The translations under genes and the position numbers were made by a program. The notes below the pieces were generated by a model, which saw only the letters and a list, made by a program, of their open reading frames with translations, was not told where the DNA came from and did no database searches. Positions 51,507 through 54,862 of a DNA stretch of 64,000 bases are shown in pieces. Where the stretch lies: positions 1-64,000 of the forward strand of contig JAJTAZ010000011.1 in assembly GCA_021287185.1 (NCBI GenBank), written 5' to 3'. Within the stretch, counting starts at the first letter, position 1; each line of letters opens with the position of its first letter. This DNA is from Burkholderiales bacterium. Its GTDB lineage: Bacteria > Pseudomonadota > Gammaproteobacteria > Burkholderiales > Burkholderiaceae.

Positions 51507-51613
51507 ATCAAATCCTTTTGTTTGATTCTACATAGGCACATCATAACGCAAACTTTTTCCTTCTTTGGTTTTGTAAAGTGATTTTTTACAATTAATCGCG
51601 GACTTCAACCATT

Positions 51614-51646
51614 CTTAATACTACCTTAATCTAAACTTGGTTTAAT
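51614..51646. promoter_or_regulatory. CTTAAT direct-repeat box (PmrA/QseB-like)
   Basis: CTTAAT at 51614-51619 and 51625-51630 are separated by exactly 5 bp, with a third degenerate copy CTTGGT (51636-51641) in the same 11-bp register. This spacing is the recognised form of OmpR/PhoB-family response-regulator sites such as PmrA and QseB. It lies about 88-120 bp upstream of the PepSY lipoprotein ATG. A possible promoter follows: TGACAG then TATTAA at 51684. Confidence 0.55.
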
Positions 51647-51733
51647 CACGCCGTCCTCGTGACAGCTGTACACCAATTCATTGTATTAACTTCATCACAT
51701 CATTTGGATCATCTACTTTTTAAAGGAATCATT

Positions 51734-52096
51734 ATGAACTATTCTTTCAAACTCGCATTGCTTGGCTCTGTTGTTGCACTGTCATTGGGCGCCTGTGGCG
51801 ATGACAAAAAAGAACTTAAAACCGCAGCGACTGCCCCAGTCACTGCCGCCGCCAATACTGCCACCACAGTTGCCGCAGCTGTGGTTAAGGATAAAAATGG
51901 TTGTATCGCTTATCCAAAAAATGAATGGATGAATGAAACAGATGCCAAAGCCAAAGTAGCCGAATTGGGTTATAAGGCCAAAACATTTGAAGTTACAGGC
52001 AACTGTTATGAAATTTATGGCTTTGACAAAGATGGTAAAAAAGCCGAAGTATATTTCGATGCAAAAACCATGGCAATTGTGAAAAAAGGCGATTGA
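51734..52096 (+). CDS. PepSY-domain lipoprotein
   Basis: A 120-residue predicted lipoprotein; signal peptide with lipobox LGAC and lipidated Cys21, then an Ala/Thr-rich linker. From about residue 55 it is a single PepSY-like domain (DAKAKVAELGYKAKTFEVTGNCYEIYGFDKDGKKAEVYFDAKTMAIVKK). Cys57 and Cys91 could form a disulfide. The start follows AAAGGAATCATT. It is the first gene of a run with a DUF4405 protein, a cytochrome b and a ZIP transporter. PepSY proteins often go with membrane cytochromes and two-component systems. The role is unproven. Confidence 0.85.
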   Translation: MNYSFKLALLGSVVALSLGACGDDKKELKTAATAPVTAAANTATTVAAAVVKDKNGCIAYPKNEWMNETDAKAKVAELGYKAKTFEVTGNCYEIYGFDKDGKKAEVYFDAKTMAIVKKGD

Positions 52097-52188
52097 CACT
52101 AATTATCAAATACACAGTACCCGAGAACATGAACACATGACTTGGATACTGGTTTTATTTAGTTTATTTTTCGAGATTGGAATTCAAA

Positions 52189-52494
52189 ATGGCATTTGAT
52201 AGAAAATGGATTACGCCCATCATGGCTGGTTCAATACTCGTTTCGGGCTTAACAGGCGCACTGATGTTCTTTGACATAGCAAACGATTTTCAAGAAGAAA
52301 TCCATGAATGGCTGGGCGTGGTACTGATGTCTGGTGCGGTATTACACACTTTACTCAATTGGCAGGGACTGAAAAAACAACTGCAAACCCCTCGTGGCAA
52401 ATGGATTTTTGGCACATTTGCTGCCTTGTTGTTGCTGAGTTTTGTGGGTGGGTTTGGTGAGTTGGGTGACAGCGGCGAAGAATACGATGATTAA
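52189..52494 (+). CDS. DUF4405 small membrane protein, possible b-heme carrier
   Basis: A 101-residue protein with three hydrophobic segments. It resembles DUF4405 proteins, which look like half a cytochrome b. Two membrane-facing histidines, His39 in EIHEWLG and His53 in VLHTLLNW, are plausible heme ligands. A TTG four codons upstream is possible, but the ATG at 52189 is the better start. It ends 14 bp before the cytochrome b gene, so the two probably form an operon and a shared redox complex. Confidence 0.78.
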   Translation: MAFDRKWITPIMAGSILVSGLTGALMFFDIANDFQEEIHEWLGVVLMSGAVLHTLLNWQGLKKQLQTPRGKWIFGTFAALLLLSFVGGFGELGDSGEEYDD

Positions 52495-52508
52495 ATTTGG
52501 GGGTTATG

Positions 52509-53033
52509 ATGAATAAAATATTGGTTTGGGATCCGTTGGTGCGTCTTTTACACTGGATTTTGGCTATTTTAGTTATTGCTAATTTTTTAAATGAAGATGG
52601 TAAATTTTATCACCGCTGGATAGGTTATACGGCCACTGCGATTGTTGTGATGCGCATTATTTGGGGATTCGTTGGTACGAAACACGCACGCTTCTCAGAT
52701 TGGTTCCCAACACCTTCGCGCGTGGTAGAATACACGCGACTGAAACTTAAAGGGCAAGCACCACGTTACATCGGGCACAACCCTTTGGGTGCTGTCATGA
52801 TGTTGCTGTTGATTGTATTGGTATTAAATCAAGGATTAACGGGCTTTATGATGGGAACCGACCAATTTTTTGGCGAAAAATGGCTTGAAGAATGGCATGA
52901 AATCGCTTCAAACTTAATTTTAGTTGCCATCGGATTGCACGTTTTGGGTGCGATTTTTGAAAGCATTAAAACCCGTGAAAATCTGCCTTTGGCAATGATA
53001 CACGGCAAAAAACGCCCACACGGTCATCGTTAA
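52509..53033 (+). CDS. Cytochrome b (b561/HydC-like) membrane protein
   Basis: A 174-residue four-helix cytochrome b domain protein of the small b-type 'cytochrome b/b6 domain' group. Candidate heme ligands are His15 (LLHWILA), His35 (YHRWIGY), His130 (EWHEIAS) and His144 (GLHVLG), one in each helix, so two hemes could bind. A Gly-rich site precedes the ATG; another ATG lies one codon upstream. Such proteins pass electrons between quinol and a periplasmic partner. Here the partner may be the PepSY lipoprotein or something outside the window. Confidence 0.85.
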   Translation: MNKILVWDPLVRLLHWILAILVIANFLNEDGKFYHRWIGYTATAIVVMRIIWGFVGTKHARFSDWFPTPSRVVEYTRLKLKGQAPRYIGHNPLGAVMMLLLIVLVLNQGLTGFMMGTDQFFGEKWLEEWHEIASNLILVAIGLHVLGAIFESIKTRENLPLAMIHGKKRPHGHR

Positions 53034-53065
53034 TTCCCTTAACCCACAAACGTATAAGGAAAATT

Positions 53066-53779
53066 ATGCCCCCTATCGCCATTATGCTCATTCCAGCCAT
53101 TGTGGTCGCCCTCAGTGGTATTTTGGCACTCATTTGGCATCCCTCTCATCAAGCACGCAGTTTGATTCAGCACTTCGCCGCTGGCGTGGTGATTGCTGTG
53201 CTTGCAGTGGAAGTGTTGCCCGAACTGACGCGTGAGCACGCGCCCAATTGGGTCTTGATTGCTTCTTTTGCTTTCGGTGTGCTCTTCATGTACCTCATGA
53301 AAATTTTGAGCGAACACTTAGAAGCCCAATCTGCCGCATCGGGCAGTGAAGGTGCAAATATCGGTTTGATTTCTACAGTGTTTATCGATGCGGCGGTGGA
53401 TGGCTTAATCATCGGCGCAGGTTTCGCTGCCAGTAAAGAAACGGGCTTAATTTTAGCCATTGGCTTGTCAGTAGAAATGTTGTTTTTAGGTCTGTCGTTG
53501 GTATCCAATACCATGAAGGGTTGGCGGATTGTGGGGCTGACCACACTGCTCGGTATTGACATGATTGCATCGATTTTGCTCGGCAACTATTTTCTCACAG
53601 GCGCATCCACCGCGATTATCAGTGCGATTTTAGCGTTTGGGGTTGCAGCGTTACTGTATTTGGTAACAGAGGAACTGCTCATTGAAGCGCACACAATACA
53701 AGAAAAACCCACCTCGGTGCTGTGGCTGTTCTCAGGGTTTTTGATGTTTTGGGCGTTTCAGTTGTACACCGCGCATTGA
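53066..53779 (+). CDS. ZIP-family metal transporter
   Basis: A 237-residue membrane protein with about seven to eight helices, resembling ZIP (zinc/iron) permeases. HFAAGVVIAVLAVEVLPE (residues 36-53) is the first half of the family core. FIDAAVDGLIIGAGF (D108, D112) replaces the usual HN/HS-xxDG of helix 4. TEELLIEAH (E202, E207, H209) is the helix-5-like second metal motif. The aspartate substitution may shift metal preference. It starts 33 bp after the cytochrome b gene and may be co-transcribed. A terminator follows. Confidence 0.85.
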   Translation: MPPIAIMLIPAIVVALSGILALIWHPSHQARSLIQHFAAGVVIAVLAVEVLPELTREHAPNWVLIASFAFGVLFMYLMKILSEHLEAQSAASGSEGANIGLISTVFIDAAVDGLIIGAGFAASKETGLILAIGLSVEMLFLGLSLVSNTMKGWRIVGLTTLLGIDMIASILLGNYFLTGASTAIISAILAFGVAALLYLVTEELLIEAHTIQEKPTSVLWLFSGFLMFWAFQLYTAH

Positions 53780-53805: not shown

Positions 53806-53838
53806 GAATACTGGGGCATTTTTGCCCCAGTATTTTTT
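53806..53838 (+). terminator. Terminator between the ZIP gene and DUF2461 gene
   Basis: A 12-bp perfect stem AATACTGGGGCA/TGCCCCAGTATT (53807-53818, 53823-53834) with a T4 loop and following T-run. It serves the plus strand; the convergent DUF2461 gene ends at 53837. Confidence 0.85.
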
Positions 53839-54569: not shown

Positions 54570-54743
54570 TTAAATTTCCACCATATCAAAATCGTCTTTA
54601 CCCATTTGACACTCTGGGCACAGCCAATCTTCAGGGACGTCTTGCCAGCGTGTGCCTGCGGCGATGCCGTCTTCAGGTGCGCCTGTTGCTTCGTCATAAA
54701 TCCAACCACAGGTTGCACACATCCAAGTTTTAAATTCACTCAT
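54570..54743 (-). CDS. Rubredoxin
   Basis: A 57-residue one-iron electron carrier. The two Cys pairs, CATCG and CPECQ, coordinate the iron. [14 protein letters not shown] and [18 protein letters not shown] are typical. The start MSEFKTW is preceded by GGAGAACGAA; a 5-codon extension to 54758 lacks support. Rubredoxins serve alkane hydroxylases or oxygen/superoxide detoxification; no partner is adjacent. Confidence 0.95.
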
Positions 54744-54862
54744 TTCGTTCTCCTTCATGGGTTAAAAATTTCAATGCTGATTGCATGGACGTATTAAACC
54801 AAATTCAGATTAACGCAAGATTAACCGCATGTGAATATTTGTAAAGTGAATACAACCAAGTA

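Follow-up and report, generated by a model that had tools for sequence, protein, structure and literature searches.

Four plus-strand genes in a 64,000-nucleotide stretch of contig JAJTAZ010000011.1, from a bacterium of the order Burkholderiales (the whole stretch is referred to here as the window), are best explained as an activator-dependent operon of a two-component regulon of the PmrA/BqsR type, with heme proteins that would act in the iron or redox homeostasis of the cell envelope. Taken as a whole, this explanation is held with rather better than even confidence; its regulatory part we regard as very probable, and iron or redox homeostasis, as the inferred function, stands at roughly an even chance. 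The operon is read as part of such a regulon because one promoter module, a direct repeat followed at a fixed distance by a -10 element, is common to the operon, a rubredoxin gene, the gene for a two-component regulator and the operon divergent from that regulator.

The operon and its promoter

The genes lie where the initial annotation had placed them and are separated by short gaps of 92, 11 and 32 bp. They encode a PepSY_2 lipoprotein of 120 residues (51734-52096; PF13670, 9e-21; lipobox LGAC, C21), a putative half-size DUF4405 membrane cytochrome b of 101 residues (52189-52494; PF14358, 2.8e-7, 31.4 bits against a cut-off of 26.7), a cytochrome b561 of the Ni_hydr_CYTB family with 175 residues (52506-53033; PF01292, 8e-28, 97.8 bits against a cut-off of 30.1) and a membrane protein of the ZIP fold (53066-53779), recognized from its AlphaFold model, its alignment and its matches to BbZIP structures. 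A scan of the plus strand between the four genes found no terminator-like site, and 3′ of the ZIP gene there is an intrinsic terminator hairpin followed by a T-run (53806-53835, plus strand; RNA fold z -6.4). With gaps this short, no internal terminator and a strong hairpin only after the last gene, the ZIP gene probably belongs to the same transcription unit, as had been proposed; the terminator scan and fold analysis gave no sign of separate ZIP transcription. The only match in a scan of the locus for RNA elements was a sub-threshold L20_leader, lying over the 3′ end of the ZIP gene and the terminator. There is also a 20-codon hydrophobic open reading frame, MTWILVLFSLFFEIGIQNGI, at 52137-52199, which overlaps the start of the DUF4405 gene; it is kept in one genome of the same genus (G001) and absent from another (G002), and is perhaps a leader or a small membrane protein, or perhaps nothing.

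The exact CTTAAT-N5-CTTAAT repeat reported upstream of the genes is present at 51614-51630 of the plus strand, a direct repeat with an 11-bp period. A pattern scan finds it once in the window and twice in the 2.03 Mb genome, the second copy lying 84 bp before a response-regulator gene. It conforms to the published PmrA consensus, (C/T)TTAA(G/T)-N5-(C/T)TTAA(G/T) (quoted in PMC10729948), as a direct repeat YTTAAK-N5-YTTAAK that overlaps the promoter core. The spacing had been taken to suit regulators of the PmrA/QseB type: this holds for PmrA but not for E. coli QseB, for which a motif unlike the PmrA-type box has been published (PMC10729948). The third copy claimed in 11-bp register is CTTCAA at 51603, which agrees in four of six letters and has no counterpart in the G002 promoter when the two are aligned, so it falls away.

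Comparison of the two exact boxes brought out a -10-like hexamer exactly 10 nt past the second half-site. At the operon this is an extended -10, TGG-TTTAAT (51638-51646, plus strand), in the geometry common to the regulon promoters, and transcription is predicted to start near 51653. The full promoter pattern can be written YTTAAK-N5-YTTAAK-N10-TTTAAT with an extended -10, and our argument rests on this full promoter because, at one mismatch, the box by itself shows no enrichment in its own genome (6 matches, against 7 for a reversed-pattern control). The box with its -10, at no more than one mismatch, gives 13 matches against 1 for the reversed control, a count to be read with the fact that the pattern was partly derived from sites that it finds, the independent test being conservation. 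In G001 the same pattern gives 3 matches against 4, and a consensus drawn from the whole order gives 6 against 0 in the genome under study and 37 against 9 across 17 genomes.

Zero-mismatch matches occur at the window operon, at the regulator promoter, at the promoter divergent from it and at one porin promoter. The last is a full pattern match on the minus strand (G000:C9:56464-56496), and a Gram-negative porin gene follows it after 49 bp; judged from sequence, this gene is a possible further member of the regulon, with a weak -10. The second regulon promoter of the window is a one-mismatch match to the box and -10 on the minus strand, GTTAAT-N5-GTTAAT-N10-TTTAAT (54793-54825), conserved in both G001 and G002. 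It precedes a rubredoxin gene (54570-54758, minus strand; PF00301, 1.9e-21), the predicted regulon member, at a distance of some 1 kb from the operon. On its minus strand the window also carries CACTTTACAA in exact form upstream of each of the two regulated promoters, at 51571-51580 and 54839-54848, and at the operon this is one half of an inverted repeat, TTGTAAA-N7-TTTACAA. These sites are possibly those of a second regulator; at one mismatch, the frequency of CACTTTACAA in the window is no higher than chance.

The probable regulator and the conservation of the operator

The response-regulator gene with the second exact box (G000:C1:28094) encodes a PmrA/QseB-like protein and is accompanied by a QseC/PmrB-like kinase gene. 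On the opposite strand, divergent from this two-component system, lie genes for an acidic-tailed PepSY protein of the PF03413 type, a flavin transferase (ApbE), a membrane protein with a weak match to Ferric_reduct and one further small protein; PF01794 proteins clustered with ApbE have been named MsrQ-like systems in the flavinylation literature (PMC8238504). Both the regulator's own promoter and that of the divergent PepSY/ApbE/MsrQ-like operon carry the box and -10 module. No FMN_bind substrate for ApbE was found in the genome. Against the equivalog models, the regulator scores 218 bits for PmrA (cut-off 330) and 198 for QseB (cut-off 345), and the kinase 202 for PmrB (cut-off 314) and 235 for QseC (cut-off 475), all below the cut-offs. 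This regulator is probably the one that acts on the window operon; a paralogue, C1:130773, could bind the operator instead. Assignment by phylogeny was set aside: a tree of response regulators does not place the C1:28094 protein as an orthologue of the operon-linked regulators and does not decide the matter. Two further observations concern the same genome. An RcnB-like (nickel/cobalt) protein is encoded downstream of the two-component system, at a distance of about 5.5 kb (L007:15639-16232). Another PmrA/QseB-like regulator, the third, is encoded in a region (G000:C1:148500-159500) whose GC content is 67.6%, compared with about 48-50% elsewhere; this region is either an island of foreign origin or a chimera of the assembly.

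Within the genus, G001 has the operon together with both window promoters, those of the operon and of rubredoxin. A regulator locus of the C1:28094 type was sought in the G001 assembly, which is 88% complete, and was not found; the flanking stomatin gene is missing as well, and the loss may be an assembly gap. In G002 the two-component system and the PepSY gene divergent from it are retained together with both of their boxes, and so is rubredoxin, again with a box. The G002 counterpart of the window locus contains only the DUF4405 and ZIP genes, still behind a box and -10, and there the operator is degenerate and the module forms a conserved island in otherwise diverged DNA.

An order-wide search found a close cytochrome b561 in 89 of 399 genomes, and the loci compared are those of the best 30 cytochrome matches, that is, 29 besides the window, which are not a random sample. 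PepSY_2 directly precedes cytochrome b561 in all 29. A response-regulator gene follows in 20, nearly always with a kinase gene in view, and upstream of PepSY_2 there is an operator in 24, in the form of [CGT]TTAAG-N5-[CT]TTAAG-like repeats (23 chosen by score and one, an exact GGTAAG repeat, added by hand); several of the loci are from close relatives (families f28 and f5), so the operator sites are not independent draws. The -10 AAT occurs at a single offset in 20 of the 24 promoters and the extended -10 G likewise in 20, neither feature having been used in choosing the sites. All 20 loci with a linked response regulator have the operator, against four of the nine without one (Fisher p 0.001), and in six genomes the sole match to the extended consensus is the PepSY_2 operator. 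The expectation that the operator would recur in orthologous promoters is thus borne out, both within the genus and across the Burkholderiales loci examined. Conservation of the gene order beyond this strain holds for the PepSY_2-cytochrome b561 pair and not for the other two genes, since DUF4405 and ZIP were observed in this operon only within the genus. Outside the order the pair is sporadic, and the cytochrome is often found with a diheme cytochrome c in place of PepSY_2. Judged from sequence, the window operon represents a conserved module of the PepSY_2-cytochrome b561-PmrA/BqsR type in a form unlinked from its regulator, to which DUF4405 and a ZIP-fold protein have been added.

Additional operator targets in relatives are EptA, in two genomes, and, in one genome each, a ferric-reductase-like FAD/NAD protein and a di-haem oxidoreductase. 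In three genomes of a single family (L213 in G040, L215 in G089, and G381:C10:92616), the gene of another OmpR-family regulator is preceded, at 39 bp, by a conserved exact CTTAAG-N5-CTTAAG, which suggests possible cross-regulation between two-component systems.

The encoded proteins and their possible function

In the PepSY_2 lipoprotein, C57 and C91 are invariant in 31 of 31 homologues, and its description as disulfide-capable stands. The DUF4405 protein has exactly two histidines, H39 and H53, as had been stated. Members of the DUF4405 family are ApbE-associated cytochromes of the heme-b type, and heme binding has been shown for them (PMC11334425); those cytochromes have six helices and four histidines, whereas the window protein is half that size and would have to dimerise to equal them. 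A search of the PDB by sequence gave it no match. The third protein had been called a four-histidine cytochrome b, which is right as to family and slightly off as to number: it has nine histidines, five of which (H16, H36, H91, H131 and H145) are invariant in the family alignment. Its nearest relative in the PDB is hydrogenase-1 cytochrome b (4gd3), and with the model for E. coli cytochrome b561 it reaches only 13 bits (cut-off 170).

The ZIP-like identity of the fourth protein is borne out at the level of fold. Its AlphaFold model (pLDDT 86.7) finds good matches in the PDB only among BbZIP structures (TM 0.77 for 8czj, E 1.7e-5), the only ones below 0.001; the protein itself has no Pfam match, including Pfam Zip, and 11 of the 16 members of the model's alignment do match Pfam Zip. 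It falls in an eight-member subfamily whose metal ligands are altered together, with carboxylates in place of metal-binding histidines: HNxxDG in TM4 becomes DxxxDG, HExPxE in TM5 becomes E(M/L/V)xFL(G/A), and (E/D)EL..EAH in TM7 is retained. The window protein reads DAAVDG in TM4 and EMLFLG in TM5 and retains only the EEL of TM7; the canonical binuclear metal site (HNxPE/HExPxE, TM4/TM5) is absent from it, and in the subfamily alignment the second metal site is essentially lost. Subfamily members in G052 and G073 adjoin RND efflux genes, as read by eye. Flavinylation of the protein at TGAS was considered and rejected, as TGAS is not kept in homologues. Most of the canonical metal ligands are gone from the protein; that the operon might reduce or import a metal, as first suggested, is a proposal.

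In the mechanism that we envision, a phosphorylated OmpR-family regulator would bind both half-sites (roughly -39 to -23) and recruit RNA polymerase to an extended -10 promoter without a usable -35; we infer activation rather than repression. The four genes would be transcribed as one unit, the heme-b proteins would probably carry electrons, in a presumed direction, between the quinol pool and the periplasm, and the PepSY_2 lipoprotein, with its conserved cysteine pair, may be a partner of the heme proteins or may feed into the sensor kinase. The outcome would be a loop that keeps the iron or redox state of the envelope in balance, with its presumed signal and substrate and a presumed role for the ZIP-fold protein. 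The reading as a regulated membrane redox operon, as first suggested, is supported. The explanation is favored because the module before DUF4405-ZIP in G002 is a conserved island and the operator tracks the linked response regulator in relatives, and also because the EptA, ferric-reductase-like and di-haem oxidoreductase targets fit, because Salmonella offers a precedent in STM1253, a cytochrome b561 activated by PmrA and PreA (PMC2653508), and because a motif in the kinases recalls BqsS. The explanation as a whole is weakened because no C1:28094 regulator was found in the incomplete G001 assembly, because DbfRS of Vibrio cholerae gave no response to iron (PMC12714742) and because the ligands of the ZIP-like protein are mostly lost.

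Several other outcomes can be envisioned for these parts. It is very improbable that the repeat is a chance match before an operon that is constitutive or otherwise regulated: the bare box, lacking enrichment at one mismatch, would allow it, and the fixed -10 offset, the conservation across families, the enrichment of the full pattern over the reversed control and the genus-level footprint left in G002 all oppose it. The PepSY_2 protein might instead be a dedicated signalling accessory like DbfQ, binding the sensor kinase in the periplasm while cytochrome b561 and DUF4405 set the redox state of its cysteines, in which case the operon would mainly provide feedback to the two-component system and would not be a metal reductase. 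PepSY proteins adjoin two-component genes more than 60-fold above expectation and the sensor domain of DbfS is bound by DbfQ (PMC12714742), and the linkage of PepSY_2 and cytochrome b561 to regulator and kinase genes, the autoregulatory operator and the invariant cysteine pair point the same way; we nevertheless think it rather unlikely, as DbfQ is a PepSY of the PF03413 type and the window protein a PF13670, and a separate PF03413 PepSY already adjoins the two-component system in this genome.

An oxidative-stress device, in which electrons taken by cytochrome b561 from superoxide or lipid radicals in the periplasm would pass to the quinone pool, with rubredoxin serving a cytosolic reductase or oxygen scavenging, strikes us as unlikely. 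Small b561 proteins can reportedly be superoxide oxidases, as in the case of CybB (PMC11869295), or act with a lipocalin against lipid peroxyl radicals, as in Burkholderia (PMC9113575); rubredoxin, moreover, has the same promoter module. The window cytochrome, however, has its nearest solved structure in hydrogenase-1 cytochrome b and not in CybB, it falls far short of the E. coli cytochrome b561 cut-off, and no lipocalin or superoxide dismutase gene was recognized beside the operon. More speculative, and quite unlikely, is a sensor of the quinone pool or redox state, in which cytochrome b561 (with DUF4405) would reduce the invariant Cys57-Cys91 pair of PepSY_2, whose state would tune a PmrB/BqsS-type kinase, and in this genus an all-carboxylate ZIP-fold transporter, added to the output, would move the reduced metal. 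If true, electron flow across the membrane, signalling by a PepSY protein and the transport of metal would be parts of a single autoregulated circuit, conserved in Burkholderiales.

Overall, the regulon reading brings PepSY, DUF4405 and cytochrome b561 “unknowns” into one regulon with a defined switch, and flags a ZIP-fold subfamily with a metal site rebuilt in carboxylates. The precise operator lets PepSY_2-cytochrome b561-two-component modules be located across Burkholderiales even where the regulator gene has moved away, the conserved switch before the same core genes opens to testing a redox or metal response of the envelope that as yet has no name, and the role of PepSY beside PmrB/BqsS/QseC-type kinases becomes testable by simple reporters.

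Comparison with known systems

The initial annotation could place the operon in no named pathway; it can now stand beside the named systems PmrAB, BqsRS and DbfQRS. The parts and the operator are of already known kinds. A literature search, in which most subscription journals lay outside coverage, returned no description of PepSY with b561 and a two-component or response regulator, and we found no earlier description of a PepSY_2-cytochrome b561-two-component operon with this promoter, of a regulon unlinked from its two-component system and including DUF4405, ZIP-fold and rubredoxin genes, or of the carboxylate ZIP subfamily. The PmrAB regulon shares the operator (PMC10729948), a cytochrome b561 among its activated genes (STM1252-STM1253) and, in two relatives, the EptA target. 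It differs in that the regulator and kinase here fall below the PmrA/PmrB equivalog cut-offs, in that the PepSY_2-cytochrome operon usually has its own two-component system, and in the DUF4405, ZIP-fold and rubredoxin targets.

The BqsR box of Pseudomonas aeruginosa, TTAAG-N6-TTAAG (PMC4682146), fits the window-type operator on the other strand and overlaps the promoter core. BqsRS/CarRS and DbfQRS also have a PepSY gene beside the two-component system, as do the PF03413 gene here and the PepSY_2-cytochrome b-regulator-kinase loci of relatives; the PepSY of the window operon, in contrast, is a PF13670 protein linked to cytochrome b561, with the two-component system elsewhere in the genome. BqsS has an ExxE motif for Fe2+ (PMC12666569), and all 13 kinases inspected have a membrane-proximal ExxE, a short motif, directly after the first helix; nearly all of them have Leu or Met after it, where BqsS has Asn49.

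BbZIP shares the fold and the TM7 (E/D)EL..EAH motif with the ZIP-fold protein and differs in the TM4 and TM5 ligand motifs, replaced in the window subfamily, and in the second metal site, there essentially lost. ApbE-linked DUF4405 and MsrQ-like systems resemble ours in the DUF4405 protein, here a presumed heme-b cytochrome, and in the ApbE and Ferric_reduct-like proteins of the predicted regulon (PMC11334425, PMC8238504), and differ in that the window DUF4405 protein is half-size and unlinked from apbE, in a genome in which no FMN_bind protein was found. Finally, SHP operons combine cytochrome b, diheme cytochrome c and SHP with a QseC-like kinase (PMC2909971). No SHP or diheme cytochrome c gene was recognized between 50.5 and 55.5 kb of the window; what the two arrangements share is a related membrane diheme cytochrome b adjoining a QseBC-like two-component system, with PepSY_2 here in the place of the diheme cytochrome c.
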